Source: a virus. From it: a DNA stretch of 36,865 bases. The DNA lies in IMG/VR virus record IMGVR_UViG_3300009008_000117, positions 1 to 36,865 of that record. One strand, 5' to 3'. Shown here piece after piece: positions 3,008 to 17,000 of the stretch. Both the position numbers and the translations under genes were made by a program. Below the pieces are notes generated by a model. The model did no database searches, was not told the origin of the DNA, and saw only the letters and a list, made by a program, of their open reading frames with translations. Position 1 is the first letter of the stretch; every line of letters begins with the position of its first letter.

Positions 3008-4135
3008 ATGAGCAACCCTGACGATTTTGATTTTGCCGAGACAGCTAGCGAAGTAAACCCGCCTGCTCTCGACACCCCCACAACCACCACAACTGACGAT
3101 TTTGATTTCGTCGATCATTATGGTGACGATGAAGAAGTAACACACGAGAACTTGCTTCCGGAGAACACTGTTCCCGCATCGCTGAACTGCGCAGTTATTG
3201 GCGTAGGGGGAGGTGGGGGCAAGATGGCCAAAGCCTTTCTCGATCTTGGTTACAATAGGACTTTGCTTGTCAATACCACTGCTAAAGATGTTCCTAGCGA
3301 TGTGGATGATAAGCATGTGGTTTTGATTCCCGATGCCGATGGCATTGGAAAAGATGTGAATTTAGGAAAAGCTGTGTTTGATGCAAACAGTACGGTCGTA
3401 GAAGATGCCCTCCGCACAAAATTAGGCAAAGTTGACTGGCTGTTCGTTTGCGCTGGGGGCGGCGGTGGAACTGGTTCTGCCGTCGCTTCCCTACACGGCG
3501 TGTTTGAACGATATCTGAAATCTGTTCAAGCCGAAGGGGAAGTTGTGTATCTCACCTCTTGGCCGACCGCACAAGAATGCTTGAACCCGACAATTAGCAG
3601 AAATGCGCTCGCACTCCTTAATGATGTTTCAGAGCACACGCACGTTGTATTAGATAACGAGCGTCAAGTTAAGTTGCTCCGCGGCAAAGTTGGAATGCTT
3701 GGATTGTTTCCCGCAGCCAATACCGCATTCGCAAAGCTGTGGACACAAGTATTAAAGCTATCTTCAGATAAGTCACCGATTCAATCTTTTGATTCAAAAG
3801 ATCTCGAAAGATGTTTGCGAACGCCACAAAGAATGTTTATTGGTTCGACAATGGTTAAGGATCCTGCCACTCCCAACCTGGGTTCGATGATTCTTCAGAA
3901 TTGCATGAAGCGTTCACCGTGCCCCCCGGCGAAAGGAAAGCCAAAGACAGGCGCACTGCTTCTGGTTGTTTCGTCTGCAATGGCAAACGATCCAGAAATC
4001 AGCAAGCACATGGATGCTGCGATTGGATATGTCGGCGGAAGAACCGAGACACTTTTTTCAGGCGTTTACATTAATGATAACGTACCTGGGCTCGTTGCCA
4101 TACTATGTATGAATGGGCTACCCAAAGGAAAATAA
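3008..4135 (+). CDS. Tubulin/FtsZ-superfamily GTPase of phage
   Basis: A 375-residue protein starting 13 bases after the nuclease fusion. The nucleotide-binding pattern of FtsZ/tubulin is clear: glycine-rich GVGGGGGK (residues 65-72, where FtsZ has GVGGGGGN), NTTA (89-92, FtsZ NTDA), the tubulin signature GGGGGTGSA (150-158), VVLDNERQ (213-220, FtsZ VIPNDR-like) and FDSKD (261-265), a plausible T7 loop. Residues 1-58 are an acidic, Thr/Pro-rich tail containing the motif DDFDF twice (5-9 and 30-34). Known phage tubulins (PhuZ, TubZ-like) form filaments that position or move phage DNA and capsids; a similar role is inference here. The placement next to the recombination nuclease suggests work on replicating DNA. 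It is too divergent to name as PhuZ or FtsZ. Confidence 0.85.
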   Translation: MSNPDDFDFAETASEVNPPALDTPTTTTTDDFDFVDHYGDDEEVTHENLLPENTVPASLNCAVIGVGGGGGKMAKAFLDLGYNRTLLVNTTAKDVPSDVDDKHVVLIPDADGIGKDVNLGKAVFDANSTVVEDALRTKLGKVDWLFVCAGGGGGTGSAVASLHGVFERYLKSVQAEGEVVYLTSWPTAQECLNPTISRNALALLNDVSEHTHVVLDNERQVKLLRGKVGMLGLFPAANTAFAKLWTQVLKLSSDKSPIQSFDSKDLERCLRTPQRMFIGSTMVKDPATPNLGSMILQNCMKRSPCPPAKGKPKTGALLLVVSSAMANDPEISKHMDAAIGYVGGRTETLFSGVYINDNVPGLVAILCMNGLPKGK

Positions 4136-4297: not shown

Positions 4298-4606
4298 ATG
4301 AAACTATCCAAATCCCAACTTAAACAGATTATTAAAGAAGAGCTTGAAGAAGCATATGGCGGCGCTTCAGGACCATTTCCAGATAGGTACGGTGATGCTC
4401 ACGAGAAGAGTCAGAAAACTAATATGAATCGCAGCCTTGGTGAGTTTGCTCAATGGGTCTCCCGCATCGACGGACACATCGAACAGATTACAGGAGAAAG
4501 TATAACAGCAGATAAGATGCCCTCTGATATTAATCTTTATGATATGTGGCTCCTTGGATTGTCTCCTGGTCAGGCTGCACAAGATCTTACGACGAGAGAC
4601 TATTAA
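4298..4606 (+). CDS. Small protein with MKxSKxxLKxII N-terminal helix (candidate capsid-targeted protein)
   Basis: A 102-residue protein whose first 18 residues, MKLSKSQLKQIIKEELEE, form a charged amphipathic helix shared with other short proteins in this window (5223, 7559, 8436, 16330). The helix contains IKE, which fits the (Leu/Ile)-x-Glu pattern cut by T4-type gp21 protease, a homologue of which is encoded at 14894. The remainder has no recognised domain; it contains Trp residues and a YDMWLLGLSPGQAA segment. In T4, internal head proteins carry an N-terminal capsid-targeting peptide with this kind of cleavage site. Packaging into the head is therefore a reasonable hypothesis, not something shown. 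The stop overlaps the next start by one base. Confidence 0.7.
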   Translation: MKLSKSQLKQIIKEELEEAYGGASGPFPDRYGDAHEKSQKTNMNRSLGEFAQWVSRIDGHIEQITGESITADKMPSDINLYDMWLLGLSPGQAAQDLTTRDY

Positions 4607-4740
4607 TGAAACTTTGGAATAAACTAAATCACTGGCTCGAATGGCGCGGAATTAAGTGGACCGACATTCTTGGTTCGGGTGTAGCATTTGGAACAATCAT
4701 TGCACTAATTATAGTATTAATATGGGCAGGATTACAATGA
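4606..4740 (+). CDS. Small single-span membrane protein, 44 aa
   Basis: I chose the ATG at 4606, which overlaps the previous stop codon (TAATG), over a longer in-frame start at 4546 inside the upstream gene. The 44-residue product has a basic, Trp-rich N-terminus (MKLWNKLNHWLEWRG) and one strong hydrophobic helix (about residues 23-42, SGVAFGTIIALIIVLIWAG). It overlaps the next start by a few bases, so the genes look translationally coupled. No family recognised; a role in the host envelope or lysis is possible but unproven. Confidence 0.6.
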   Translation: MKLWNKLNHWLEWRGIKWTDILGSGVAFGTIIALIIVLIWAGLQ

Positions 4741-4922
4741 AACAAAAGCTCTTAAAATTATGTCGATTGGATGTGCTGGCTCTTGGGCTAGCATTGCTTG
4801 CTTTAGCAGTCGCGTGTTGTGGACATCACAGAACACATGAAAGGTTGAATGAGATGGAACGCATTGGAATCCCGCATCAACCACACCCGCCCGTTAAATT
4901 AGGAGAAGAGTGCCCATGGTAA
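4737..4922 (+). CDS. Small membrane or lipoprotein-like protein, 61 aa
   Basis: I chose the ATG at 4737, overlapping the previous stop, rather than the upstream in-frame start at 4656. After a basic start (MKQKLLKLCRLD) comes a long hydrophobic stretch (LALGLALLALAVACC, about residues 15-30) followed by a polar His-rich tail. The AVAC segment weakly resembles a lipobox, so this may be a small lipoprotein, as outer spanins are, but the -3 residue is not the usual Leu. The gene lies among other small membrane proteins and overlaps the next start. No family recognised. Confidence 0.55.
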   Translation: MKQKLLKLCRLDVLALGLALLALAVACCGHHRTHERLNEMERIGIPHQPHPPVKLGEECPW

Positions 4923-5221
4923 TTAATGAAGCAAAATTGACAGAAATGGCAACCCAGGAACTTAAAAACGTTCTCTTAGAAAAGTACGCACGGGCTCAAC
5001 TGGCTCAGGTACTAGCAGAACAAGAAATGGTTTCTACCGCAAAGATTGAAGAATTACTGGAAGATGTCGTCGAAGCATTGGGACTCATCGATTTAAGTAT
5101 TGATTATTTGACTGCCGCATTGACCGGCAATGATCCCGCCTCAATCGGCGTGGCGCAACGAGTGTTAGGCCGCGGCAGTCGACGAGCAGCTGATGTCAGC
5201 ATTGGAAAGCCGGGCTCTTAA
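4916..5221 (+). CDS. Hypothetical helical protein, 101 aa
   Basis: The ATG at 4916 is preferred to the GTG at 4910 because AGGAGAAG (about 4901-4908) is better spaced from it. The protein is almost entirely helical and acidic; it begins MVINEAKLTEMATQELKNV and ends in a short Arg/Ser-rich tail. The N-terminus is loosely similar to the MKxSKxxLKxII helices of its neighbours (INE and LLE fit the (Leu/Ile)-x-Glu pattern) but lacks the II-x-EE core, so membership in that set is doubtful. It overlaps the previous gene and is followed one base after its stop by the next ATG. Function unknown. Confidence 0.65.
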   Translation: MVINEAKLTEMATQELKNVLLEKYARAQLAQVLAEQEMVSTAKIEELLEDVVEALGLIDLSIDYLTAALTGNDPASIGVAQRVLGRGSRRAADVSIGKPGS

Positions 5222-5222
5222 A

Positions 5223-6011
5223 ATGAAAATTACCTACGCCACATTAATGAATATCATCAAGGAAGAACTAGAGGAAGCTTTAGATCCTCACAGGTCTTTA
5301 GCTGCACAGGCAGAAGATGAATATGAAGAACCCACCGGAGAGCCGGGCGATATTGAGGCGGACACTGTTTTTCCTGGCGGCGGTCCCGGCGAATGGCAGG
5401 CTGCTAAAGATGCGGAACCAGTCAAGCAACGCCCACCGCGTGAGTATCGTCGTGAAGCCATCAAGCTCCTAGCCAGTTTTAATGTTAAGGTTGGTCCTGA
5501 CGAAATTGATATCGTTGCATGGCAACTCTACAACAATGCCATGGCTTCTGAAACGGAGCCGATGAAAGAGCCGGGCGGCAAGCTTTCGTTCCTCAAGAAG
5601 GCCATGAAAAAAATGGGGTTGTCAGAAGTTACCAACGCAGAGTTAAGTGCCATCCGTTATTTTACGCGTGGACTCTCTTATGAAGTAGAAGCTTTGTTGG
5701 TTCAACTAATGCATAAGCATGATTTTACATTGGATGATGTAGAAGTGATGGCTAAAGAGCTTAGAGGCCTTGGGCAAGGAAGGCTTGATCCTGCGCCACA
5801 GAAACGCATGGCCGAAGGTCCACTCCAAAAATACATTGAAGAAGAGATAGACAAGTATTTAGCCGAAGTCCATTCAGAAAAACAGCGTGCCTATATGTGC
5901 GCGCAAGCAAATTTACCGGATAGTGAAAGAAAAAAGGGCTTATCAAAAGCAGAAGCAGAAGAAATGTGTCATGGCCCGATGAAAGAATCACAAACAAAGA
6001 GAGGAAAGTAA
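5223..6011 (+). CDS. MKxTxxxLxxII-type protein, 262 aa (candidate capsid-targeted protein)
   Basis: The start is placed at the ATG at 5223, just after the previous stop, because it yields the shared N-terminal helix MKITYATLMNIIKEELEEA; an upstream in-frame start (5193) lies in the previous gene. The helix carries IKE, matching the gp21-type cleavage pattern. A low-complexity acidic, Pro/Gly-rich linker (about residues 20-75) precedes a helical middle. Near the C-terminus is a segment with two cysteines, SEKQRAYMCAQ to AEEMCHGPM, of a kind I have seen at the ends of other environmental phage proteins. No enzyme domain is recognised. It could be an internal head protein injected or packaged with DNA; this is inference from the N-terminus only. 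Confidence 0.75.
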   Translation: MKITYATLMNIIKEELEEALDPHRSLAAQAEDEYEEPTGEPGDIEADTVFPGGGPGEWQAAKDAEPVKQRPPREYRREAIKLLASFNVKVGPDEIDIVAWQLYNNAMASETEPMKEPGGKLSFLKKAMKKMGLSEVTNAELSAIRYFTRGLSYEVEALLVQLMHKHDFTLDDVEVMAKELRGLGQGRLDPAPQKRMAEGPLQKYIEEEIDKYLAEVHSEKQRAYMCAQANLPDSERKKGLSKAEAEEMCHGPMKESQTKRGK

Positions 6012-6012
6012 A

Positions 6013-6198
6013 ATGAGTTTATTAACACAAGTATGGGACAGTGTTGTCACTGCAGCCGGCAATGTCGCCAGAGCAGTTTTAGATACCGGCTGGTCCGTCT
6101 GGCACGAAATTACCGATGGCGCTCGGCGCCGTAGCTGGTGGCTGCTCGTAGCTCTAGTATGGCTCGACGGCGTACTCGTTGCTCACTGGTTGCTGTAG
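6013..6198 (+). CDS. Small membrane protein, 61 aa
   Basis: A short protein that starts one base after the previous stop. The N-terminal half is amphipathic (MSLLTQVWDSVVTAAGNVAR), followed by an Arg cluster (GARRRS) and one Trp/Leu-rich membrane span (about residues 40-61, WWLLVALVWLDGVLVAHWLL) that ends the protein. The positive cluster before the span suggests a cytoplasmic N-terminus. It lies just before a holin-like and a spanin-like gene, so a place in the lysis set is possible. No family recognised. Confidence 0.6.
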   Translation: MSLLTQVWDSVVTAAGNVARAVLDTGWSVWHEITDGARRRSWWLLVALVWLDGVLVAHWLL

Positions 6199-6206
6199 GA
6201 GAGAAC

Positions 6207-6401
6207 ATGGAAGAGCAAAGTGGATTCATCGACACTTGGTTGATGAAGTTAACATCACGTAAGCTTCTAGTGTGGCTTACTGCGTCTGCGTTAGCGTTCG
6301 GCGGCTATCTAGCCAGCGCTGACTGGGTTATTATTTCGAGCATCTTTATCGGCACACAAGGGGTCGTAGATGTGGTGGAGAGACTGAAGGGCCTCAAGTG
6401 A
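6207..6401 (+). CDS. Holin-like small membrane protein, 64 aa
   Basis: The ATG at 6207 follows AGGAGAGA with good spacing and is preferred over an upstream in-frame start at 6138 inside the previous gene. The product has two short hydrophobic segments (about residues 18-33, KLLVWLTASALAFGGYLA, and 37-52, WVIISSIFIGTQGVVD) separated by a short turn, then a charged C-terminus (VERLKGLK). Size, two-span layout and neighbours with spanin-like features resemble small phage holins, which form membrane holes at lysis. No endolysin is visible in the window, so the lysis assignment is tentative. Confidence 0.6.
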   Translation: MEEQSGFIDTWLMKLTSRKLLVWLTASALAFGGYLASADWVIISSIFIGTQGVVDVVERLKGLK

Positions 6402-6784
6402 CCACGCAACAGTTAGTAGTGCAATTCCTACTTAAGAATTGGAAAGGCATTTTAATCGCTGTCTTGTCCCTGGTGGTGATGGGAAAGATGCGCTATGACC
6501 ATAAGCAGATGCAAGCAGCATACGAAGCATCCGAACAGTCCCTACAGGCACAAATCGCAGGCCTGCAAGAAATTCACAAGCAGCAACTAGCTGATATGGA
6601 AGACTCGCTACAGGTCTACAAAGATACCTTAGATCAAGTAGAACGAGACTATCGAGAGAGCCAAGAAGAACTGCTAGAAGTGATCGAGAGTCGAAGAGAG
6701 GAATACGGAAGACAATTCTCTCAAGACCCCGAAGAACTAGCGGAGACAATAATGTTAATGTACGGATTTGATTATGTTCCTTAG
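6398..6784 (+). CDS. Inner-membrane spanin-like protein (Rz-like topology)
   Basis: Starts at GTG 6398, overlapping the stop of the holin-like gene (AAGTGA). It is 128 residues with an N-terminal membrane anchor (about residues 13-30, WKGILIAVLSLVVMGKM) and then a long polar coiled coil (about 35-110) rich in Gln and Glu. This is the layout of i-spanins, which cross the periplasm to help disrupt the outer membrane of Gram-negative hosts. No sequence motif defines spanins, so the call rests on topology and context: holin-like gene before it, and a secreted coiled-coil protein overlapping its 3' end. Confidence 0.55.
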   Translation: MTTQQLVVQFLLKNWKGILIAVLSLVVMGKMRYDHKQMQAAYEASEQSLQAQIAGLQEIHKQQLADMEDSLQVYKDTLDQVERDYRESQEELLEVIESRREEYGRQFSQDPEELAETIMLMYGFDYVP

Positions 6785-7193
6785 TCTATTATTAACGTTG
6801 GCCGGGCCCGCTCAAGCAGCCGACACAGGCCAGTTTACCTTTCTGGGGCACCAACAGTGTGCCCCGTTTGAGGGTGTGCTTTTTGACGTGCCGGCATTGT
6901 CCGAAATCATGGCTCGCCAATCAACCGCCAACCTTGCATGCCAAGCACGAATTGAATATGAGCTTTCAGTTGAAGCCGCAAACTATGAGTTACAGCTTCG
7001 CAATTGGGAGATTCAATATACGGCTCTGCACGAGGAAATGACACTGATAATCTTTCAGAAAGATCAAGAAATTGAAGAACTCCAGGCATCCCTACTACGC
7101 CAGTCTCCGAGCAATGGATGGCTGTGGGGCGCAGGTGGAGTAGTGGTGGGTGCAGTTGTTACCTATGGGGCTTACCGAGTGTTCAATGAGTGA
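6774..7193 (+). CDS. Secreted coiled-coil membrane protein, possible spanin partner, 139 aa
   Basis: I chose the ATG at 6774 rather than the TTG at 6768. The start gives a good Sec signal peptide (MFLSLLLTLAGPAQA, cut before ADTG). The mature part has CAPFEGVLFDVPALSEIMA (about residues 24-42) and two cysteines, then a coiled coil (about 55-110), and ends with a Gly/Val-rich membrane span (about 113-133). I have seen similar proteins beside Rz-like genes in environmental phages, without assigned function. With a signal peptide and a C-terminal anchor it would span or line the periplasm. It overlaps both neighbours. A spanin-type role is inference. Confidence 0.6.
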   Translation: MFLSLLLTLAGPAQAADTGQFTFLGHQQCAPFEGVLFDVPALSEIMARQSTANLACQARIEYELSVEAANYELQLRNWEIQYTALHEEMTLIIFQKDQEIEELQASLLRQSPSNGWLWGAGGVVVGAVVTYGAYRVFNE

Positions 7194-7572
7194 AAAAGAT
7201 TTTGACAAAATCGCCGCTATCGAACAAGCCATTGCTAAGAAGTACGGAAGCGAGACTGTTCAAAACCCCCGCGCAAATTGGGACGAGACCAAAGAAAAAG
7301 AATACCTCGAACAGATGCGGGAATTATATAAGAAGAATACCAAGCACGAAGCCTTCCAAGAGAAAATAGATGTAAATGGTATAAAGGTTGCAAAGAAACT
7401 ATTTAATAGAGATTCTTTACGGCATTGTCCTGTTTGTTCTTCTCTCGCTAGAAAAGCGACAGACGATGTTTGTCTTCTCAAATTTGATTGTTGCTATAGT
7501 TGTTATGATCGATACGTAGAAGGCAGAGAAGAAAGATGGGAAAAAGGCTGGAGACCAAATGAGGATAACTAA
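7186..7572 (+). CDS. Conserved phage protein with zinc-ribbon-like cysteines, 128 aa
   Basis: The ATG at 7186 overlaps the upstream gene; longer in-frame starts lie inside that gene. The N-terminal half is helical (MSEKDFDKIAAIEQAIAKKYG, NPRANWDETKEKEYLEQ). The C-terminal half has CPVCSSL (about residues 84-90) and CCYSCYDRYVEGREERW (about 104-120), four to five cysteines that could bind one zinc. The family is familiar from marine T4-like phages but to my knowledge has no assigned function. A regulatory or assembly role would be a guess. It overlaps the next gene by 14 bases. Confidence 0.75.
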   Translation: MSEKDFDKIAAIEQAIAKKYGSETVQNPRANWDETKEKEYLEQMRELYKKNTKHEAFQEKIDVNGIKVAKKLFNRDSLRHCPVCSSLARKATDDVCLLKFDCCYSCYDRYVEGREERWEKGWRPNEDN

Positions 7573-7897
7573 AGCTGACTTGAAGGAAATGATTGTGCAA
7601 CTGCTAGCAGAACAAGAAGAGCCCGCTCGGTTAACACAAAAAAGTATGAGCGCTTCTAGCTTTGTCCGTGCAGGCAAGGAAGGCCGCCAAGATGTAACGG
7701 GAGAATTAACCCCACAAGAGCAGGGAATTATAGATCAGGTCGACCAGTTTTTGTTGAACTTGGCAAAAGTACCCGGCGTGGACATTAATGCTAGCAAAGC
7801 ACTCCTCCAACGCGTGGTTCAACTCCTCCAACGTCAACTGGTCCCCAAACAACAACAGGCAGCCCCCGAAGCCGCTACACAAGGAACACAGAAATAA
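7559..7897 (+). CDS. MRITKADLKxMI-type small protein (candidate capsid-targeted protein)
   Basis: A 112-residue protein starting with MRITKADLKEMIVQLLAEQE, a variant of the N-terminal helix found in 4298, 5223, 8436 and 16330. LAE fits the (Leu/Ile)-x-Glu cleavage pattern of T4-type prohead proteases. The rest is a Ser/Gln-rich linker, a helical segment (about residues 50-95, with QVDQFLLNLAKV and LLQRVVQLLQRQL) and an Ala/Gln-rich tail. No domain is recognised. Its ATG lies in the end of the previous gene and its stop overlaps the next ATG (TAATG), so translation is probably coupled. Confidence 0.7.
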   Translation: MRITKADLKEMIVQLLAEQEEPARLTQKSMSASSFVRAGKEGRQDVTGELTPQEQGIIDQVDQFLLNLAKVPGVDINASKALLQRVVQLLQRQLVPKQQQAAPEAATQGTQK

Positions 7898-8439
7898 TGG
7901 CAAGTATTTATGAAATTGTACAAGGCTTAGCGCAAGCCGCCGCTAATGCATATGATGGCGCTCTGGGTGAAGACTATGAACCCGCTAAACCCGGAATCCT
8001 GCGTCGAGAAGAGGGAGATGCCCTTATCGACCAGCGCGTAATGGACGGCTTTAATGTAAAGTTTTATGGCAACATGATGTGCTTAAGTTATCAATCCGAG
8101 ATTCAACTAAAAGAAGTATACGCTTCTGGCTTTGAGACGGAAATGGAACAACGCATCGCCGACATCGCCGGTTGGTTGAAGAAAGAATATAAAAAGATTA
8201 CAGGCGATTCAGTCACCTTAACAACCGAGGGTGAAATCGACGTACTTGTTCAAAACTCTTCCCGAGTCCGGACGTGGGTTCAAGCGAAACAACACTACAA
8301 AGTAGGCGGCCTGGATGACGAGATGCATATCGAAGCACCCTCTCGTAATAGAGTAGAAAGGACTTGGCAAGAATTTTTAGATTTAGGCGATTGGAAAGGC
8401 AAGCGCCCCAGTAACGATACAAGGAAAAAAGATTCATGA
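7897..8439 (+). CDS. Conserved hypothetical protein of T4-like phages, 180 aa
   Basis: A soluble mixed alpha/beta protein beginning MASIYEIVQGLAQAAANAYD. The middle contains VMDGFNVKFYGNMMCLSYQ and SEIQLKEVYA, then a helix (MEQRIADIAGWLKKEYKKI) and DVLVQNSSRVRTWVQAKQ. I recognise it as a well-conserved gene that lies upstream of the terminase in related environmental phages, but know no function. It overlaps both neighbours by a few bases. A structural or packaging role is suggested only by its position just before a candidate head protein and the terminase. Confidence 0.75.
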   Translation: MASIYEIVQGLAQAAANAYDGALGEDYEPAKPGILRREEGDALIDQRVMDGFNVKFYGNMMCLSYQSEIQLKEVYASGFETEMEQRIADIAGWLKKEYKKITGDSVTLTTEGEIDVLVQNSSRVRTWVQAKQHYKVGGLDDEMHIEAPSRNRVERTWQEFLDLGDWKGKRPSNDTRKKDS

Positions 8440-8783
8440 AGATTTCAATTGCACGACTTAAAGAGATTATTATGGAAGAAGTTGCTCACGCAACCAACGA
8501 GGCTCATGACAAAGATTGGGGAATGGGCAAGGATGAAAAGTCTCGCACTCGACCCGGCGAAGAAGATTATACAGGACACAAGGGAGATGAATCTCACACA
8601 CATCCCGGCGAACTTGATTACGAAGATGAAGGCGAAGATCTTGAAGGAAAGGCTAACCGAGTACTCGCGGATCTCCACGACGTAATGACTGCTGCTGGAC
8701 TCAACGTTGATATAAGTGGCGGCGTGAGCGATGACGTTGAAGACGAAGAGGAAGTCGAAATAGAACTTGCAGATGATGAATGA
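8436..8783 (+). CDS. Acidic MKISxxxLKxII-type protein (candidate capsid-targeted protein)
   Basis: A 115-residue, strongly acidic protein starting MKISIARLKEIIMEEVAHA, the same N-terminal helix type as 4298 and 5223, with IME matching the gp21 cleavage pattern. A short tandem repeat follows: RTRPGEEDYTGHKGDE and HTHPGELDYEDEGED (about residues 36-70). The end is a run of Asp/Glu. Acidic internal peptides are typical of T4-type prohead cores, so a core or internal protein role fits, though it is not shown. It overlaps the terminase start (ATGA) and may be translated with it. Confidence 0.7.
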   Translation: MKISIARLKEIIMEEVAHATNEAHDKDWGMGKDEKSRTRPGEEDYTGHKGDESHTHPGELDYEDEGEDLEGKANRVLADLHDVMTAAGLNVDISGGVSDDVEDEEEVEIELADDE

Positions 8784-10363
8784 GCTTTCAATTAGACAAG
8801 AAGCAACAAGTCCAAGAGATATTGAAATGCGGGAAAGATCCGTCTTACTTTCTTAAAACATATGCGCGCATCTCCCATCCGATGCATGGCCTCATTTTGT
8901 TTGATACATATGATTTCCAAGATGAACTTCTGACTGATTTTAATGATTACCGCTTTAACGTCATTTTGAAAGCCCGACAGCTTGGCATTTCAACTATCAC
9001 CGCTGGCTACGTTGTGTGGATGATGCTGTTCCACCGCGATAAGGCTATCTTGGTTATGGCCACTAAGTTTGCGACGGCCGGAAACCTCGTAAAGAAAGTG
9101 AAGGGTATCATGCGCCAGCTTCCAGATTGGATAAAGATTTCCACTATCAGTGTAGATAATCGTACTTCCTTTGAACTCTCTAATGGTTCCTCAATCAAAG
9201 CAGCTTCTACCTCTGGGGATGCTGGTCGTTCGGAAGCCCTGTCGCTGTTGGTGTTAGACGAGGCTGCCCACATTGAAAACCTAGAAGAACTATGGACCGG
9301 TCTATACCCCACCCTCTCGACTGGTGGTCGATGTATTGCGTTGTCAACCCCTAACGGAGTAGGAAATTGGTTTCACAAGACCTGTATCGATGCCGCGGCC
9401 GGCGCCAACAACTTTAATCTTACAACGCTTCCATGGGATGTACACCCCGAACGAGATGACGTGTGGTATCAAAAAGAAACCAAAAACATGTCACGCCGGC
9501 AAATTGCCCAAGAACTCCAATGCAACTTCAACACGTCAGGTGAAACTGTGATTGACCCCGACTGCATGGAGTGGTTGTTGTCCGGAGTTAGAGAGCCTCT
9601 ACATCGTACTGGTTTTGATCGTAATTTTTGGATTTGGGAAGAGTTTGATCCAACCTGCAATTATTTAATGGTGGTGGATGTCTCCCGCGGCGATGGTGCT
9701 GACTTTTCTACTTTTCATATTATTAAATTGGAGACCCTAGAAATCATCGGAGAGTACCAAGGAAAACTAACACCAGACTTATATGCCAACATGCTCAATC
9801 AAGTCGGCCGAGAGTTCGGAAATGCCATGATGGTAGTAGAAAATAATAATATTGGCTATACAGTACTTGACAAACTCACAGAATACGGTTATCCTAATCT
9901 ATATTACTCTATTAAGTCTACTCATGAATACATTGAGCAACACCAAGCAGAAATTCGCTCTTCTGCTATCGCCGGCTTCACCACCACAATGAAAACGCGA
10001 CCCCTAATAGTTGCAAAATTAGAAGAGTTTATAAGAAATAAACTAATTAAAGTGTATTCATCGCGTCTGGTTAATGAAATGAAAACTTTTATTTGGAAAA
10101 ATGGCAAACCCCAAGCCATGAAAGGTTATAATGATGATTTAATTATGGCCTTGGCGATTGGTTGTTGGGTGCGCGACACGGCTATTCAAGCAAACGCTCG
10201 TGATCTGAACTATCAAAAAGCTTTTGTAGATGCCATCATCACCACCAAGACAACCATGAACACACGCATTAGTGGGCAGCATGGATACAAGAAGGATAAC
10301 GTTTTTGATAAAATGAGCGAAGCAGAAAAACTTTATGCCCAATACAAATGGATTATCAAGTGA
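8780..10363 (+). CDS. Terminase large subunit (T4 gp17-like)
   Basis: A 527-residue DNA-packaging motor. The ATPase domain has a Walker A variant ARQLGIST (about residues 65-72), Walker B LLVLDEAAH (156-164, Asp160/Glu161) and the coupling motif STPNG (189-193). The nuclease domain has VVDVSRGDGADFS (298-310), the usual first acidic residue of RNase H-like terminase nucleases, then VVENNNIG and a late YNDDLIMALA. T4 gp17 is 610 residues, so this is slightly short, as is common in relatives. It uses ATP to pump DNA into the prohead through the portal, encoded next, and cuts the concatemer. No recognisable small terminase gene is visible in the window. Confidence 0.96.
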   Translation: MSFQLDKKQQVQEILKCGKDPSYFLKTYARISHPMHGLILFDTYDFQDELLTDFNDYRFNVILKARQLGISTITAGYVVWMMLFHRDKAILVMATKFATAGNLVKKVKGIMRQLPDWIKISTISVDNRTSFELSNGSSIKAASTSGDAGRSEALSLLVLDEAAHIENLEELWTGLYPTLSTGGRCIALSTPNGVGNWFHKTCIDAAAGANNFNLTTLPWDVHPERDDVWYQKETKNMSRRQIAQELQCNFNTSGETVIDPDCMEWLLSGVREPLHRTGFDRNFWIWEEFDPTCNYLMVVDVSRGDGADFSTFHIIKLETLEIIGEYQGKLTPDLYANMLNQVGREFGNAMMVVENNNIGYTVLDKLTEYGYPNLYYSIKSTHEYIEQHQAEIRSSAIAGFTTTMKTRPLIVAKLEEFIRNKLIKVYSSRLVNEMKTFIWKNGKPQAMKGYNDDLIMALAIGCWVRDTAIQANARDLNYQKAFVDAIITTKTTMNTRISGQHGYKKDNVFDKMSEAEKLYAQYKWIIK

Positions 10364-10371
10364 GATTATAA

Positions 10372-12360
10372 ATGGCAGACCCCAAGAAAAACCCCGCTAA
10401 TAGTAACACCACCCTGTTTAAAGCTCTAACCCGACTTTTCTCAGGCCCTATTGTTAGTTACCGTTCGCAGTCCGGACGCAGAATTAGACGCCAACATCTA
10501 GATAAGTTTTCATCTAGATTCAAGTCAGCGTCGGGACAACAGTTTAAAAAGACGATGCACAACCCGCTCAACGAGTTGGGCGCAAACGCAATCGCAAACC
10601 AGCGCCGTTCTGAGCGCTATGTTGATTTTGACCAGATGGAGTACATGCCGGAGATTGCATCCACTCTAGACATCTACGCAGATGAGATGACCACCTATTC
10701 TGAATTACGACCCATGTTAAACATTCGCTGCCCCAATGAAGAAATTGAAGCTGTGCTCGGTGTCCTCTTTGATAGCATACTTAATCTCAAGTATAACCTT
10801 TTTGGCTGGGCGCGCACCATGTGCAAGTATGGCGACTTCTTTCTCTACCTAGACGTAGATGAAAAATATGGCGTCCAGTCGGTCATCGCCCTTCCCTCTC
10901 AAGAAATTGAAAGGCTCGAAGGACAAGACTCTACCAATCCTAACTACGTTCAATATCAGTGGAACTCTGCCGGCATGACTTTTGAGAACTGGCAAATTGC
11001 CCACTTCAGAGTCCTAGGAAATGATAAGTATTCTCCATATGGTACATCAATTTTGGAACCAGCACGACGCATCTGGAGGCAGCTAGTGCTTATGGAAGAC
11101 GCCATGATGGCATACCGTGTTATCCGTTCGTCTGAACGACGCGTCTTTAAGATTGACGTTGGTGGCATTCCCCCACAAGACGTAGAGCAGTACATGCAAA
11201 AGATTGTAAGTAACCTTAAGCGACACACAATTGTGGATCCCTCCACAGGACAAGTCGACTTGCGCTACAATCCTATGAGCATCGAGGAAGATTACTTCAT
11301 TCCTATTCGTCCCGGTTCCGCAACAGACATTACGTCGCTCGCCGGCGCACAAAACATTACCCAGATTGATGATATCAAGTATTTACGTGACAAGCTTTTC
11401 TCCGCACTCAAGATTCCTCAATCCTACTTAACGATGGGAGAGGGAGGAGAAGAAGATAAAACCACTCTGGCCCAGAAAGACATGCGGTTTGCAAGAACCA
11501 TCCAGAGACTACAACGAGTCATCATCGCAGAACTTACAAAGATTGGAATCATCCATCTCTATACCCTAGGTTTCAGAGGGGACGACTTATTAAGCTTCAG
11601 CTTAACCCTCAACAACCCCTCGAAGATCGCAGAGCTTCAAGAAATCGAAACGTGGAAGCAGAAGTTCGATATCGCGGGAGCCGCTACAGAAGGCTTCTTC
11701 TCTCGCCGCTGGGTTACTGAACACATCTTTGGGATGTCTCACGAAGACTTCATTCGCAACCAACGCGAAATGTATTATGATCGGAAGCACGATGCAGCAC
11801 TTCAACAAGTGGCAGAAGCAGCCGCTGCAGAAGGGGGCATGGGTGGTGGCGACATGGGAGGAGACCTTGGGGGTGATCTTGGAGGAGACCTTGGAGGCGA
11901 CCTTGGAGGAGACTTGGGTGGAGGGCCCGAAGAGATGCCCGCAGCAGAAGCGGGTGGCGACGAAGGCGCCGAAGACACCGCCCTTCTGGCAGTTCCCCCT
12001 GGATCTCGAAATGAACCACGTCTTACACCTGGGGCTAAAGGCAAAGTCTATTATCCTAAGAAGGTCGATCAACGGCCCGCCGGCGCCAGAACGCGCTCTA
12101 ATGCCGCTAAATATAATCGGGAAAAGGGAGGTTCATCCGCTCGGAATATTACCCCTGGAATGGGCGACCTGCAATCATTGGTAAAAATGGGCGGCGCATC
12201 AACAGGTATTTATGAAGAAGAAGAACCTATTTATAAAACAGGAGAGTTGTTAGAAGAAAATCAGCTATTCCAAATAAATGAATCTACGCGTAAACTAATT
12301 ATGGAATTAGAACAAAAGAGTGAAACCCCTACGGAGCAAACACATGAAGACACGACATAA
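10372..12360 (+). CDS. Portal protein (T4 gp20-like)
   Basis: A 662-residue protein directly after the terminase. Portal-type features include LNELGANAIANQRRSERYVDF-type N-terminal region, DEMTTYSELRPM, a long helix-rich stem, and LKIPQSYLTMGEGGEEDKTTL (split here for length) followed by FARTIQRLQ, which is typical of gp20 homologues. Portals form the dodecameric ring at the head vertex that nucleates assembly and passes DNA. The C-terminal fifth is unusual: a run of DLGG repeats (residues about 494-517), an acidic stretch, a Lys/Arg-rich stretch and an acidic tail. T4 gp20 is 524 residues, so this tail accounts for the extra length. It overlaps the next gene by 17 bases. Confidence 0.93.
   Translation: MADPKKNPANSNTTLFKALTRLFSGPIVSYRSQSGRRIRRQHLDKFSSRFKSASGQQFKKTMHNPLNELGANAIANQRRSERYVDFDQMEYMPEIASTLDIYADEMTTYSELRPMLNIRCPNEEIEAVLGVLFDSILNLKYNLFGWARTMCKYGDFFLYLDVDEKYGVQSVIALPSQEIERLEGQDSTNPNYVQYQWNSAGMTFENWQIAHFRVLGNDKYSPYGTSILEPARRIWRQLVLMEDAMMAYRVIRSSERRVFKIDVGGIPPQDVEQYMQKIVSNLKRHTIVDPSTGQVDLRYNPMSIEEDYFIPIRPGSATDITSLAGAQNITQIDDIKYLRDKLFSALKIPQSYLTMGEGGEEDKTTLAQKDMRFARTIQRLQRVIIAELTKIGIIHLYTLGFRGDDLLSFSLTLNNPSKIAELQEIETWKQKFDIAGAATEGFFSRRWVTEHIFGMSHEDFIRNQREMYYDRKHDAALQQVAEAAAAEGGMGGGDMGGDLGGDLGGDLGGDLGGDLGGGPEEMPAAEAGGDEGAEDTALLAVPPGSRNEPRLTPGAKGKVYYPKKVDQRPAGARTRSNAAKYNREKGGSSARNITPGMGDLQSLVKMGGASTGIYEEEEPIYKTGELLEENQLFQINESTRKLIMELEQKSETPTEQTHEDTT
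11851..11922 (+). repeat. 12-bp tandem repeat coding DLGG, six copies, in portal gene
   Basis: Six in-frame units of the form GACCTTGGAGGA, with small variations, encode (Asp-Leu/Met-Gly-Gly)x6 in the portal C-terminal region. The first unit has ATG in place of CTT. A similar but shorter array lies in the scaffold gene at 22333-22386. Confidence 0.9.
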
Positions 12361-13177
12361 TAAAAAACGTAATTCGGCCTTTGTTTATGAAGCTCTGGTT
12401 AGAGAAGCGACAGTAGCAATGCTGAAGAAAGACACTGCACGCTGTAACACAGCCGTGAGAATTATCAAGAAACACTTTAAAGAGGGAAGCCTTTTAAGAC
12501 ATGACTTAGAGTGTCATCGTTCTCTGTATGAAAATCAAAGCTTGGACAAGGAAACATCGGAAAAGATTTTAAGAGAAGCCAAAATGGCCAATCGACTATT
12601 AGACGCTGAAGGTCTCTTCGGCGAACAAAGCGAACTCATCCGGGACATCAATAAAGAATTAGAACCCAGAGTCTTTGGCAACTTTGTTCCTAATTATAAA
12701 TCTTTGGCTTCCATAGCACAAATTTTCTCCGATAAGATCTCTCCCAAACATCAAGTTATATTAGAAAATGAAATCGTTAAGAACATGATGAATGCGTCGG
12801 TTGTCCGCGATAACCAGTCAGAAATAGACCATGTAGTGGTGCGTGCTTTTACTCAAAAGTTTAATAATAAATACGATAAAGATTTGCTAGCCGAACAAAA
12901 GGAACTCTTAACTTATTATATTTCTTCGTTCGCCGACAACGCTCTCGAATTGAAGATATTCTTAAATGAAGAAATCGCGCGCTTAAAGACTCAATTGGAG
13001 GGCGCCCGAACGGTGGAGGATATCAAGAATGACAAAGACATGCTCCAGAAAACTGAAGAGATCATAGGACGCCTTAGCGAGTTCTCTAATGCGCCGGTGG
13101 ATGATGAAGTGCTCTTAACCATTTTAAAAACTCAAAGTCTCGTAAAGGAAATCTATTCAGATGGCAATCACAGTTAG
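12344..13177 (+). CDS. Conserved head-cluster protein, helical, 277 aa (possible prohead core protein)
   Basis: The ATG at 12344 gives the basic N-terminus MKTRHNKKRNSAFVYEALVR, which I recognise from related environmental phages; in-frame starts further upstream lie inside the portal gene. The protein is nearly all helix and contains many (Leu/Ile)-x-Glu sites. In T4 the interval between portal and protease encodes small prohead core proteins (gp67, gp68), so a role in the prohead core is possible, but I see no sequence similarity to them. It overlaps the portal gene by 17 bases and the next gene by 17 bases. Function unassigned. Confidence 0.75.
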   Translation: MKTRHNKKRNSAFVYEALVREATVAMLKKDTARCNTAVRIIKKHFKEGSLLRHDLECHRSLYENQSLDKETSEKILREAKMANRLLDAEGLFGEQSELIRDINKELEPRVFGNFVPNYKSLASIAQIFSDKISPKHQVILENEIVKNMMNASVVRDNQSEIDHVVVRAFTQKFNNKYDKDLLAEQKELLTYYISSFADNALELKIFLNEEIARLKTQLEGARTVEDIKNDKDMLQKTEEIIGRLSEFSNAPVDDEVLLTILKTQSLVKEIYSDGNHS

Positions 13178-13703
13178 AATTGGAAAGGGAGATTCGCCCG
13201 AAGCCACTGTTCGTTTAGAATTAGATGTGCGCAAAAGCATGAACGGCGATTTAATGATTTTTGATCACGGGGATATCGATATTGTCCTTTCTACTAAGAA
13301 CAATAAAATCACGGCCTTCCCTAAAGAGACCATGAACGACTTGGTGTATGGTGCCCAGAACAGATTGTTTGCCCACTTACGCAAAAAAGGCCTTGTTATA
13401 GCTGATTCTATTCAAGGGGGGGCTTTTTATGGTGCTTTCGAGGCACTCATGGAGGAAACTAGTGCTGAAAATCTCAGCACACCCAAGCTGGCATTGATAA
13501 ATATTTCTAATTTTATTGATGAAGAGCGCCCCTACTTCGAATCCACCGAAGCCTTTATCTCTATGGCCGATGATGAGCTTGTCCACCCGGATAAGGCTGA
13601 TTCCACCGAACTTGGAGAGGTGCCACAGCGTTCTGAACAAGGATCTATTCGTCCTGGATATATTAGGGATCCATATTCCTTAAGTTATCTGTATACGATT
13701 TAG
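13161..13703 (+). CDS. Conserved head-cluster protein, 180 aa, unknown function
   Basis: The first two thirds look alpha/beta (VRLELDVRKSMNGDLMIFD, DIDIVLSTKNNKITAFP, MNDLVYGAQNRLFAHLR) and contain AFYGAFEALMEE; the C-terminus is acidic and polar and ends in SLSYLYTI. I recognise the family from T4-like marine phages but know of no assigned role. Its start lies inside the end of the previous gene, and the next gene follows after 9 bases with GGAG in between. The neighbours are portal and prohead protease, so a head assembly function is likely but not shown. Confidence 0.72.
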   Translation: MAITVRIGKGDSPEATVRLELDVRKSMNGDLMIFDHGDIDIVLSTKNNKITAFPKETMNDLVYGAQNRLFAHLRKKGLVIADSIQGGAFYGAFEALMEETSAENLSTPKLALINISNFIDEERPYFESTEAFISMADDELVHPDKADSTELGEVPQRSEQGSIRPGYIRDPYSLSYLYTI

Positions 13704-13712
13704 GAGCCTTCT

Positions 13713-14540
13713 ATGTCTGAAATGAAATTGATAATGGAGAATTGGCGCTCTTATCACACAGACCAGTTACAACTATTGCGTGAAAATGAGGTGGCAGATT
13801 TAGTCAGTGATGCCCTCGAACAAGCAATGAAAGACATTGAAGATAAAGTTGATGCCGAGGTAGAAAAGAGAGACAACGAAGAGGAAGGTGCCCTAGAGAA
13901 AAAAACTTTAGCGGAGGCCGAACAGTTAAACGAATCATTGGCGATGGGCGCTGTTCTTGTCCTTTGGGTTAAGGCGATTGGTCTTTTAACAGCAACAGGA
14001 GTTGTGGCGAAAATTGCTAACTATGTTTTTATTAAGATGGGAATCGCAGGTCGTGAGCGCGAATGGGAACGGGCACTTGATCCAGCTTCTCCTGCTGCTA
14101 ATGTGGAAATCCCACTGGAGAAATTTGCTAGTTTTTTAGAAGAAACCGCCAAGGCATTGGCTACGGGCGGCTTTAATCGGGTGGCCATGAAGTTGGTTGA
14201 TAAACTTGTTACAGACCCAACCAAAAAAGAAGAATTGAAGGAAAAAATTGATCTAATGGCTCGTATTATGGTTTTTATTATTACTGTTGGGGCAGGCATT
14301 AACGAGTTAACCAAAGGTGCAGAGGCTTCTGGTAACGTATCTACATACTTTATGAATCTAGCAAGGGAAGCAGATGTGGCAAATGTTCCTGGTATGGACG
14401 CTATAGGAAATTTGTTTGAAGCCGGCGCAGATAGTATGGAATTTATAAAAAAAACTTCTCAAATTGTATCTAAAGCATTGGCCGGCTCGGGCAACACACA
14501 ACGTTGGACCAGCATTCTTTTTGAGGAGGATTTAATGTAA
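13713..14540 (+). CDS. MEN-WRSY-type protein with hydrophobic segments, 275 aa
   Basis: Begins MSEMKLIMENWRSYHTDQL. The LIMENWRSY core is matched by LLMESWRGY in the gene at 15495, on the other side of the protease gene. IME and LRE in this N-terminus fit the gp21 cleavage pattern. A strongly acidic helix (about residues 35-70) is followed by a hydrophobic region (about 75-110, GAVLVLWVKAIGLLTATGVV) and another (about 190-205, MVFIITVGAGI), so the protein may insert in a membrane. Internal head proteins that are ejected into the host can have such segments. Function is unknown; the N-terminal parallel is the main clue. Confidence 0.7.
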   Translation: MSEMKLIMENWRSYHTDQLQLLRENEVADLVSDALEQAMKDIEDKVDAEVEKRDNEEEGALEKKTLAEAEQLNESLAMGAVLVLWVKAIGLLTATGVVAKIANYVFIKMGIAGREREWERALDPASPAANVEIPLEKFASFLEETAKALATGGFNRVAMKLVDKLVTDPTKKEELKEKIDLMARIMVFIITVGAGINELTKGAEASGNVSTYFMNLAREADVANVPGMDAIGNLFEAGADSMEFIKKTSQIVSKALAGSGNTQRWTSILFEEDLM

Positions 14541-14845
14541 TGGAACTATTATATTTTATACTGTGTGCCTACGGGCTCACTCAAATTCTAGTATACGGAA
14601 AAGTTTTAGACTTGTTACGCCCGACGAAAGGATGGCTGGGCCAACTATTTAGTTGCCCTATGTGTATGGGTTTTCACGTAGGTTGGATTTTAATGCTACT
14701 TTCTCCTTACACAGAACTATTTAATTTTGATGTAACCCCGGTAAATTATCTTCTTTTAGGATCTCTCTCATCGGGCACATCGTATATTTTAAATATGGTT
14801 TTTGGAGACGAAGGAATTAAACATGAATACAAATACATGGATTAG
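14540..14845 (+). CDS. DUF1360-like membrane protein, 101 aa
   Basis: A small membrane protein starting at the ATG that overlaps the preceding stop (TAATG). It has three likely spans (residues 1-18, about 44-58, about 68-85) and the motif SCPMCMGFHVGW (about 37-48), which matches the CPxCxGFW-type signature of DUF1360 proteins found in bacteria and phages. The role of that family is not known to me. Its position between two head genes is common in related phages but does not explain its job. Confidence 0.7.
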   Translation: MELLYFILCAYGLTQILVYGKVLDLLRPTKGWLGQLFSCPMCMGFHVGWILMLLSPYTELFNFDVTPVNYLLLGSLSSGTSYILNMVFGDEGIKHEYKYMD

Positions 14846-14891
14846 CAAATGGAGACTACAACCCGTTCGGCGTTGTTGTAAAGGTTCTTAG
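14823..14891 (+). CDS. Tiny basic ORF, 22 aa, uncertain
   Basis: An ATG within the end of the previous gene opens a 22-residue frame that fills the short gap before the protease gene: MNTNTWISKWRLQPVRRCC. It ends KGS and has a Trp/Arg/Cys-rich composition. The frame could be accidental. I list it because it covers the only gap in this stretch and its stop lies two bases before the protease ATG. Confidence 0.25.
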   Translation: MNTNTWISKWRLQPVRRCCKGS

Positions 14892-14893
14892 CT

Positions 14894-15502
14894 ATGGCTA
14901 AAGTTTTATTGCGTGAATATTATGCCCTCTGCGAAGGCGGCGTATGTCAAGATTTATTAACTGAAGAAGAGAAGAGATTCGTTTCTAATGGCGGGATGAT
15001 GCTTTCTGGCAAACTCCAAGAAGCTGACGTCCAAAATGGAAACGGACGCGTCTATCCCTATAAAGTTTTGATGCGCGAGGTAGGGAATTATAAGAAACTA
15101 GTAAAAGAGAATCGCGCTCTCGGCGAACTAGATCACCCCGATGATTCAGTCATTAATCTTAAGAACGCCTCCCACATGGTAACAGATGTGTGGATGGAAG
15201 ACAAAGCCGTGATGGGCAAAGTCAAAGTGCTTGATACCCCATCTGGCAATATCCTTCGCGGCCTTGTCAACAGCGGCGCACAGCTTGGTATCTCATCCCG
15301 AGGCATGGGATCTGTTAGCGAAGCCCAAGGACAGACAATCGTAGAAGATGACTTCCAACTTATCTGTTTTGATTTTGTATCGGAGCCTTCTACGCCCGGC
15401 GCCTATATGATGAAAGAAGCAAAAGATTTGAGTACCCCTAACGTGTTCACTAAAGCAGATCGCATTAACCGACTGCTCAACGAGGTCTTAGAAAGTGAGT
15501 AA
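14894..15502 (+). CDS. Prohead maturation protease (T4 gp21-like)
   Basis: A 202-residue serine protease of the caudovirus prohead type. The likely catalytic residues are visible: His81 in GELDHP, Ser134/Ser135 in LGISSRGMGS, and an acidic residue in CFDFVSEPS (Asp160). T4 gp21 (212 residues) cuts scaffold, capsid and internal proteins after (Leu/Ile)-x-Glu when the prohead is complete. Such sites occur in the candidate substrates here: capsid protein (LRE, residues 58-60), scaffold, and the N-termini of several short proteins. The conserved N-terminal LSGKLQEADVQNGNGRVYP supports the family. Its stop overlaps the GTG start of the next gene. Confidence 0.94.
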   Translation: MAKVLLREYYALCEGGVCQDLLTEEEKRFVSNGGMMLSGKLQEADVQNGNGRVYPYKVLMREVGNYKKLVKENRALGELDHPDDSVINLKNASHMVTDVWMEDKAVMGKVKVLDTPSGNILRGLVNSGAQLGISSRGMGSVSEAQGQTIVEDDFQLICFDFVSEPSTPGAYMMKEAKDLSTPNVFTKADRINRLLNEVLESE

Positions 15503-16313
15503 AAATTGGTCAAGTTTTGAGAAAGATCAACTTCTCATGGAAAGCTGGAGAGGTTATCTAGAGGAAGAAATAGTATTGGAAGAGCTTAATCAAATGCTGC
15601 TTGATGAAGGCATGAGAGAACAGATCCAGGCTTTTATACAGCGGGTGGGAACTTATCTTAGTAAGTTTTGGAGTAGCCCTGAGTTTAGAGAAGCCGAGCT
15701 AGAAGATGCTGGAGAGGCCTTAGCCGCAACTAAAGAAAAAGTCGGTGCCCAGCTAGAAGATATGTGGGGAGACGGTTTGGAAGGCCTAGCTAAGATAATA
15801 CTCTTGCAGTTAAAAATGCAAAAAAAGGTTGTAAATGAACGTAATTTATATGAGGCCGTCTTTAAGATGGTTCAATATGTTTATAAAAAAGGTGCTCAAG
15901 TAGCCGCCGGCGCGAAAAATACCGCTCGCGTGGCCGCAGCAGGTAGCACCATGGGCACTAGCGCCGGCGCCGAGCTTTTCTTAAGAAAGGTGTTGAAGGA
16001 TGAGATAGCCGGCGCCAAGGCCGTAGCCGAGGAGCTAGCCGGTGACGAGAAGGTAGCACAGATGCTTTTAGCACAACTAATGGAGTTGCCCGAGATCCAG
16101 CAAGCCATGGCGGCCGACAAGTGCCCCGCCAACACTCCCCAGGAAAAGGTATGGCACGAGATGGGGCTAGTGCGCGATCCAGAGGGCAAATGTTATTCTT
16201 CGGAGGATAACGTACCGCCCCGAGAACCCCTGGATGCAGCCGTCGACGCCTACGGAACACCCAAGGCTCAAGCTTTATTGAAAAAGTTCAAAGCTGAACA
16301 AGCCGCCGAATAG
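15495..16313 (+). CDS. MES-WRGY-type helical protein next to the protease, 272 aa
   Basis: Starts at GTG 15495, overlapping the protease stop; there is no better ATG, and the GTG start yields MSKNWSSFEKDQLLMESWRGYLEEE (N-terminus given in two parts: MSKNWSSFEKDQ, then LLMESWRGYLEEE). LLMESWRGY matches LIMENWRSY in the gene at 13713. LME and LEE fit the gp21 cleavage pattern. The protein is helical, with an Ala/Gly-rich centre (about residues 135-165) and a C-terminal segment with CPANTPQEKVWHEMGLVRD and a second Cys. It may be a prohead core or internal protein. Function unassigned. Confidence 0.7.
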   Translation: MSKNWSSFEKDQLLMESWRGYLEEEIVLEELNQMLLDEGMREQIQAFIQRVGTYLSKFWSSPEFREAELEDAGEALAATKEKVGAQLEDMWGDGLEGLAKIILLQLKMQKKVVNERNLYEAVFKMVQYVYKKGAQVAAGAKNTARVAAAGSTMGTSAGAELFLRKVLKDEIAGAKAVAEELAGDEKVAQMLLAQLMELPEIQQAMAADKCPANTPQEKVWHEMGLVRDPEGKCYSSEDNVPPREPLDAAVDAYGTPKAQALLKKFKAEQAAE

Positions 16314-16329
16314 AATCCAAGGAAGATTA

Positions 16330-16749
16330 ATGAAGAAATCAGAACTCAAACAACTTATCAAACCCATTGTAAAAGAATGCATTAATGAAGTTCTTTTAGA
16401 AGAGGGGCTTCTCTCGAATGTGGTAGCAGAAGTAACCAAAGGTTTACAACAGAACGTTATAGTGGAATCTCAGAAAGCCGCTCCCGCCCGGGCACCGTCC
16501 CGTGAGCCGGCTCAACAGCAGCAGCAAGCCCTACAATCACGCACTCAAATGCAACAACACCGCAAGAGTTTAATGGCCTCTATCGGTCGCGATGGATACA
16601 ATGGCATGGACTTGTTCGAAGGCACTACTCCCATGGAAAGTGATACCCCACCCGCTGGCCGAGCAGATCTGGGAGCCCCTACTGATGCGGGCGTAGACAT
16701 TAGTTCTTTGGTGGGCAACTCTTCGGCCATTTGGGAAGCATTAAAATAG
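16330..16749 (+). CDS. MKKSELKQLI-type protein, 139 aa (candidate capsid-targeted or core protein)
   Basis: Begins MKKSELKQLIKPIVKECINE, a variant of the LKxII helix of 4298, 5223, 7559 and 8436. It is followed by VLLEEGLLSN; INE and LEE fit the cleavage pattern. A Pro/Ala/Gln-rich linker (about residues 50-80, with five Gln in a row) leads to a short conserved-looking C-terminal part (SLMASIGRDGYNGMDLFEGT, then VDISSLVGNSSAIWEALK). Its place between protease and capsid genes matches where T4-type phages keep core proteins. The ATG is preceded by AAGGAAG with normal spacing. Confidence 0.7.
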   Translation: MKKSELKQLIKPIVKECINEVLLEEGLLSNVVAEVTKGLQQNVIVESQKAAPARAPSREPAQQQQQALQSRTQMQQHRKSLMASIGRDGYNGMDLFEGTTPMESDTPPAGRADLGAPTDAGVDISSLVGNSSAIWEALK

Positions 16750-16757
16750 GGATAAAC

Positions 16758-17000
16758 ATGGCTCACGGCGCACACGTTAAAGTTACAGCAAAAGAATGTC
16801 GGGGGATCCCCGAAAGAATGATTCGGCGCTTTATTAAAAAAGTGAAGAAAGCTGGCATCATCGATGAAGTTAAAAAGAGGAAGGCTTATAAAAAACCTTC
16901 TGTCGCCAAGAAAGAAAAAAGAATTAAAGCTGCTCGCCGGCGCATGCGCGAAGAGCAAAAACGTCGAAGAGCACAAGAAAGACGTAATAGAAATATTTAG
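16758..17000 (+). CDS. Viral small-subunit ribosomal protein bS21 homologue
   Basis: The ATG at 16758 is chosen over an in-frame start at 16731 inside the previous gene. The 80-residue basic protein follows the bS21 plan: a short beta start (HVKVTAKEC), helix 1 with MIRRFIKKVKKAGIIDEVKK (residues 21-40), the linker RKAYKKPS (41-48, bacterial bS21 has REFYEKPT-like), then a long Lys/Arg-rich helix to the end. Bacterial bS21 sits at the 30S platform near the anti-Shine-Dalgarno. Viral bS21 genes are known from marine phages and are thought to enter host ribosomes and favour phage mRNAs; that effect here is inference. It ends just before a promoter-like box. Confidence 0.85.
   Translation: MAHGAHVKVTAKECRGIPERMIRRFIKKVKKAGIIDEVKKRKAYKKPSVAKKEKRIKAARRRMREEQKRRRAQERRNRNI

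Follow-up and report, generated by a model that had tools for sequence, protein, structure and literature searches.

In bacteriophage T4, the capsid-targeting sequence (CTS) of IPI, IPII, IPIII and Alt is a short N-terminal peptide borne by unrelated proteins, in a genome that also encodes the prohead protease gp21, whose cleavage motif is L/I-x-E (PMC9026906). Mutants of IPIII assign residues 4 and 7 to targeting and residues 8 and 10 to processing (PMC9026906). In T-even phages only the CTS is conserved among otherwise varied internal proteins, of which IPI* is an injected agent against GmrSD (PMC3012670). In the φKZ-like phage SPN3US, the inner-head or ejected proteins gp47, gp53 and gp54 carry N-terminal propeptides that a gp21-related protease cuts, the N-termini of gp53 and gp54 being common to both (PMC5694885), and the polyvalent proteins of phages and conjugative elements bring together varied enzyme domains and are predicted to be injected as infection starts (PMC5512222). 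Here we describe two shared N-terminal segments, leader A and leader B, in a whole IMG/VR virus record of 36,865 bases (the window), which is a piece of a T4-like myovirus. Judged from sequence, the leaders are very likely to be T4-type capsid-targeting propeptides peculiar to this clade, placed on a far larger set of cargo.

The new leaders share with the T4 CTS the arrangement of a short N-terminal peptide on unrelated proteins and a gp21-type protease in the genome, but they differ in sequence, with 14 residues (A and B) or about 18 (a third leader, below) against 10-19 in T4; the clade has at least two leader families, a large record holds about 7-16 leader genes against about four, and the cargo is acidic and rich in enzymes. 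The φKZ-like propeptides are mostly longer than 100 residues and occur on few proteins, whereas the leaders described here have 14-18 residues and precede many unrelated proteins. Polyvalent proteins differ in uniting many domains in one long fusion, while here single domains each follow a short common leader.

An earlier note on this DNA had proposed that five window genes, starting at 4298, 5223, 7559, 8436 and 16330, begin with one common helix followed by unrelated bodies, each helix containing a cleavage-type site, and that a gp21 homologue is encoded at 14894. Using a leader-A profile from which the window's own sequences had been left out, we found leader A (MKITKSQLKQIIKEEL type) on the first four genes, all of which score above the maximum of 10.4 bits reached over 200 shuffled sets (Table 1); the N-terminus of 16330 also exceeds this maximum, at 11.8 bits, but is marginal. 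Full-length conservation marks the family of 16330, which adjoins the protease, across some 75 related sequences (E around 1e-60), so this gene falls outside the pattern of unrelated bodies behind a leader and was rejected as shuffled-leader cargo. The open reading frame of gene 5223 has an alternative start at 5193, and relatives favour 5223. The cleavage-type site ends at residue 14 in 4298, 5223 and 8436; gene 7559 has Gln at residue 14 and a cleavage-like motif, IVQLLAE, four residues later (12-18). Genes 13713 and 15495 had been overlooked and carry leader B (MKLIMENWRxFLxE), the second shared start. The gp21 homologue stands: the protein is a member of Peptidase S77, and the GEL(D/N)HP and (I/V)SSRG(M/L)GS segments of T4 gp21 are both conserved in it.

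Both leaders contain the motif φ-x-x-φ-φ-x-E (φ, hydrophobic) ending at residue 14. This is found in 72 of 100 leader-B cluster representatives and in 39 of 42 for leader A, a count that is partly built in because a profile or pattern served to collect the leader-A sets; the figure for other N-termini is 1.8%. Within leader A, the conserved positions are L8 (110/113), I/L/M11 (111/113), I/V/L12 (113/113) and E14 (108/113), and within leader B they are W8 (89/89), F/Y11 (74/89), L/V/I/M12 (89/89) and E14 (78/89). The leader-B search pattern fixed residues 1-8 alone, so residues 9-14 are unbiased, and here the information content is 3.45 bits at E14, 0.97 at residue 15 and below 0.75 beyond. The helical moment is high for leader B and not decisive for leader A. 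The same spacing occurs in IPII and IPIII of T4 (MKTYQEFIAE↓A, with YQEFIAE at 4-10; ↓, cut) and the new leaders have it four residues further in; residues 5-14 of leader B (MENWRKFLNE) match MKTYQEFIAE at Met, aromatic, aromatic, aliphatic and Glu. The gp21-removed propeptides of T4 gp24 (MAKINELLRE↓S, with INELLRE at 4-10) and gp23 (FGSFLTE) also display φxxφφxE, but on shell proteins and not on cargo, and the acidic T4 protein gp67 contains LIKE↓E, the cut marks of gp24 and gp67 following from the motif. In the N-terminal arm of the capsid protein, the φφxE core is kept in 27 of 27 relatives, directly before the conserved core and at a position corresponding to the T4 gp23 cut. The T4-like residue spacing, the φφxE core at the capsid site and the end of leader-B conservation at E14 all speak for the capsid-targeting reading put forward in the earlier note.

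The bodies behind the leaders are diverse: clustering of a first set, 113 leader-A proteins, gave 42 cargo clusters unrelated to one another, and 145 leader-B proteins gave 100; most bodies belong to no recognised family. Among leader-B bodies we found matches to DnaJ (J-domain, 5.9e-16), M23 peptidase (3.3e-18) and PGDYG (7.5e-13), together with kinase-like (5.4e-6, under the Pfam cut-off), zeta toxin (1.4e-5), C5 DNA methylase (1.2e-5), cytidylyltransferase (CTP-transferase), HAD/5'-3' deoxyribonucleotidase and 2H-type phosphodiesterase; the Pfam matches of several cargoes are weak. The five members of the 2H-like family have invariant M1, K2, E6, N7, W8 and E14, then a variable stretch and two H-x-T motifs. 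A model of this cargo (pLDDT 74.8) places the leader as a separate helix of low confidence, and the fold search consistently returned CNPase-type 2H enzymes, which is supportive only, the best E value being 2.5e-3 and none at or below 0.001. In about six cases, homologous bodies follow leader A in one phage but leader B in a second: L029:744-1145 and L140 (63% over 115 amino acids; L numbers denote related sequences), L256 and L144 (49% over 88), L114 and L225 with L088 (about 32% over 180), L203 and L283 (33% over 183), L117 and L156, and L265 and L157. Since homologous bodies sit behind either leader, the two leaders most probably have equivalent roles.

We examined the spread of the leaders among 80 relatives gathered through the protease. 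In a leader-A scan over 82 protease-centred sequences, 96 of the 97 profile matches of at least 20 bits start exactly on the start codon, while shuffled N-termini reach at most 9.5 bits, and leader A is present in all 24 sequences of at least 15 kb. It lies on the protease strand in 116 of 116 cases, which says little because the coding of these phages is nearly all on one strand. Searches of viral contigs gave at least 120 matches each for the leader-A DNA pattern and the leader-B pattern, and GTDB genomes gave a single leader-A match, on a 15.9-kb metagenome-assembled genome (MAG) contig that also has two leader-B genes; the simplest reading is that this contig is viral. With a control peptide pattern of comparable composition (MKLITEGW), viral contigs yielded no match, and hence no random long records from which to take a background rate for the protease; a rough background figure is 2,529 protease matches among 50,697 phage records. 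Searching phage records with the bare leaders by tblastn gave no matches, an uninformative result as the query is probably of low complexity, and no phage paper in the literature searched mentions QIIKEE or MENWR.

In each of six large records (154-200 kb) there are 2-9 leader-A genes and 3-8 leader-B genes, frequently in tandem. S77 is encoded in 25 of 34 long leader-bearing records and in 17 of 17 of those of at least 115 kb; the nine long records without S77 are also without a capsid gene, and a portal is found in one alone, truncated at the edge. A capsid gene is present in 12 of 12 protease-positive records tested. The proposal of the earlier note would have been contradicted by a leader common in phages without a gp21-type protease; no leader was found in phages shown to lack one, though the phages surveyed are related. 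Leader B was absent from the other S77 phages tested, T4, KVP40, RM378, S-WAM2, Melnitz, HTVC008M, phiM12, Cr30, D484 and Mel-JY01, and the leader-A pattern gave each of them no more than a single stray hit. In the isolate Flavobacterium phage immuto, _175 and _190 begin with shorter leader-A-like sequences (_190 with a weak RegB-like match, E 0.0056, under the cut-off), and _178, _193 and _194 share a leader of the phage's own (NFDLKKFLVENKLT type). Because the other S77 phages are without the leaders and immuto has its own, the leaders appear to be clade-specific and the motif common.

The window order of terminase, portal, protease and capsid is that of immuto and of Microcystis phage Mel-JY01. 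A homologue of ribosomal protein bS21 lies within the head-gene cluster, and Mel-JY01 has an annotated RpsU at the same place. This T4-like phage also encodes a GTPase of the Tubulin/FtsZ family.

Table 1. Features of the window, with scores from the leader-A and leader-B profiles (↓, predicted cut).
Feature	Position	Strand	Description
Tubulin/FtsZ-family GTPase	3008..4135	+	PF00091 6.4e-8; weak phage tubulin PhuZ match, phrog_4733
Leader A of gene 4298-4606	4298..4339	+	MKLSKSQLKQIIKE↓E; LKQIIKE, residues 8-14; 32.6 bits
Leader-A protein, 102 aa	4298..4606	+	body without notable family match
Leader A of gene 5223-6011	5223..5264	+	MKITYATLMNIIKE↓E; LMNIIKE, residues 8-14; 18.9 bits
Leader-A protein, 262 aa	5223..6011	+	C-terminal SEKQRxxMCAQ...EAEEMC, recurrent among other leader-A proteins
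Variant leader A of gene 7559-7897	7559..7612	+	MRITKADLKEMIVQLLAE↓Q; motif moved to residues 12-18; 14.7 bits
Leader-A protein, 112 aa	7559..7897	+	42 homologues
Leader A of gene 8436-8783	8436..8477	+	MKISIARLKEIIME↓E; LKEIIME, residues 8-14; 28.7 bits
Leader-A protein, 115 aa	8436..8783	+	acidic; 4-base overlap with terminase start
Terminase	8780		
Portal	10372		
Leader-B protein, 275 aa	13713..14540	+	relatives at this place: leader kept, body swapped
Leader B of gene 13713-14540	13722..13763	+	MKLIMENWRSYHTD; begins three residues past start; no φxxφφxE; 28.7 bits
gp21-type prohead protease (Peptidase S77)	14894..15502	+	PF03420 9.5e-30; phrog_207 3.2e-53; 32% identity to T4 gp21 over 173 aa
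Extended leader B of gene 15495-16313	15495..15566	+	MSKNWSSFEKDQLLMESWRGYLEE↓E; WRGYLEE, residues 18-24; 23.0 bits
Leader-B protein, 272 aa	15495..16313	+	immediately 3' of protease; relatives' bodies here 184-914 aa
Leader-A-like start of gene 16330-16749	16330..16377	+	MKKSELKQLIKPIVKE; 11.8 bits; conserved head-cluster protein
bS21 homologue	16731..17000	+	PF01165 2.4e-10
gp22-position gene	22132..23346		
Predicted propeptide of major capsid protein	23381..23560	+	ends ...KELLRE↓SS at residue 60; phrog_138 4e-69
Sheath	28643		

From the leaders, their motif and register, their exchange and the company of the protease we infer targeting, cleavage, packaging and injection along the following lines. 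The short amphipathic stretch at the N-terminus (φ8-x-x-φ11) would attach to the scaffold core of the prohead and take the protein behind it inside, where the gp21-type protease would cut behind the glutamate of φ11-φ12-x-E14 and free the mature protein in the head; at least the enzymatic cargoes would then leave the head with the DNA and be injected. The clade would use at least two interchangeable leaders, A and B, and some phages a third, for a large and quickly changing cargo set. Several points weigh against this proposal, besides the collection of the leader-A sets by profile or pattern. In leader A the P1' residue is a conserved Glu and P2' is hydrophobic, which exceeds the needs of a mere cleavage site, and window gene 13713 is without the residue-14 Glu. 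The leaders and the T4 CTS agree only in hydrophobic/Glu spacing and residue class, 14 residues being too short to argue for common descent. With median pI values of 4.8 (A) and 5.0 (B), the cargo is acidic, whereas the T4 internal proteins are basic; T4-like DNA binding was rejected as a general rule for the cargo, and because of their acidic pI the proteins were not filed as homologues of the T4 internal proteins. There are also rare copies of the leaders at C-termini or within fused proteins. The coding of these phages, mostly on one strand, takes the weight from strand agreement, and the co-occurrence of leader and protease lies inside one clade, so that it is not independent evidence, the phages being related. 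Lastly, the literature searched gave no virion proteomics or N-terminal data for the clade.

It is conceivable, with a sizeable chance that falls short of even, that the leader-A proteins are mainly components of the prohead core or scaffold, comparable to T4 gp67, gp68 and gp22, with a leader helix that serves core assembly; the proteins would then be degraded by the protease during maturation and would not be injected. The leader-A bodies are indeed small (median 107 amino acids) and acidic (59% with pI below 5), several of their families hold fixed positions beside the terminase and protease, and T4 offers both the acidic gp67 with its gp21-type site and core proteins that gp21 fragments (PMC9026906). 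A fixed scaffold would hardly show so many and such changeable bodies (42 clusters in about 80 relatives), nor an exchange of leaders with leader-B cargo, and this reading leaves the leader-B enzymes unexplained.

An address other than the capsid, be it the host membrane, a phage compartment or a tubulin-based structure, would agree with the high helical moment of leader B and with the tubulin-type GTPase of the window, φφxE then being a by-product of an amphipathic helix. We regard this as improbable: three unrelated leaders converge on φφxE at or near the end of conservation, a feature superfluous for a membrane or compartment helix, and the φφxE core recurs at the predicted capsid cleavage site. 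Least probable by far is that the shared N-termini represent a DNA or RNA element, such as a recombination site, promoter or translation enhancer, and not a peptide signal. The leader does stand right at the beginning of many coding sequences, where a translational element might be expected, and the Ile4 codon of leader B is strongly biased, being ATA in 52 of about 57 cases across relatives. Third positions of the conserved leader residues vary freely (0.09 bits at codon 3 and 0.10 at codon 12 of leader B), the DNA upstream of the start is not conserved, and the extended forms at 13713 and 15495 place the peptide several residues past the start codon. A DNA-level or recombination element was rejected, being largely refuted by the codon variation; the conservation is at the peptide level and not at the DNA level.

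Further variants of the leaders were observed among the related sequences. A third leader, M-(x)6-8-KRIDPRYF(L/M)xE (MAIRKNKKRIDPRYFLHE / MPKFYGQNKKRIDPRYFLEE), occurs on 18 proteins, including those of L372:16822-18258, L255, L136, L143 and L252; RIDPRYF is invariant and is followed by L/M, a variable residue and E, giving the F-L-x-E core again. Leader-A-like helices are found at C-termini in L019:4972, L153 (161-residue frame, minus strand) and L147 (222-residue frame), one of which is also led N-terminally; T4 Alt and gp21, also cut C-terminally (PMC9026906), provide a precedent for such copies. In L052:579-1103, L138, L185 and L137, another protein carries at its end, as a fusion, a leader with a SDYLSNIYKWCP domain behind it, whereas this pair is a gene of its own in L045:553, 46 amino acids long; the fusions are possibly polyproteins cut by the protease. 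On the minus strand of L254 and L301, Lys-rich proteins have PSAYASGALVKCR and SLxDWFGRKG segments split by leader-like EELxxxLEEK helices and are possible multi-cut basic head proteins. A 5'-nucleotidase-like protein with the start ...DLLLEES (L315:3155-3754) and an immuto protein with a kinase-like GEGDYGAVFLV loop and the start ...NILKE (L339:43323-43763) are possible further cargo with other leaders.

Injected phage proteins have usually been learned by proteomics, one phage at a time, and the few internal proteins of T4 include a proven anti-restriction inhibitor. What is new here is that the T4 CTS principle probably extends to exchangeable leaders that are particular to one clade and head a much wider range of cargo, the interpretation of the earlier note being the best-supported one. 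We consider it rather likely that the interchangeable leaders are a phage counterpart of a secretion signal, by which about 7-16 proteins per head would be freed by one protease and injected at infection, and the leader-bearing proteins of marine T4 relatives may be proteins injected into bacteria. The claim is directly testable in Flavobacterium phage immuto, an isolate with leader-A-like and related leaders. If true, injected and possibly counter-defence proteins could be listed from genomes alone by means of the leader, and metagenomes would yield an injected-effector repertoire of kinase-like, methylase, 2H-phosphoesterase-like, J-domain and zeta-toxin-like proteins and about a hundred further families; the CTS of T4 would then be a single instance of a general, exchangeable packaging code.

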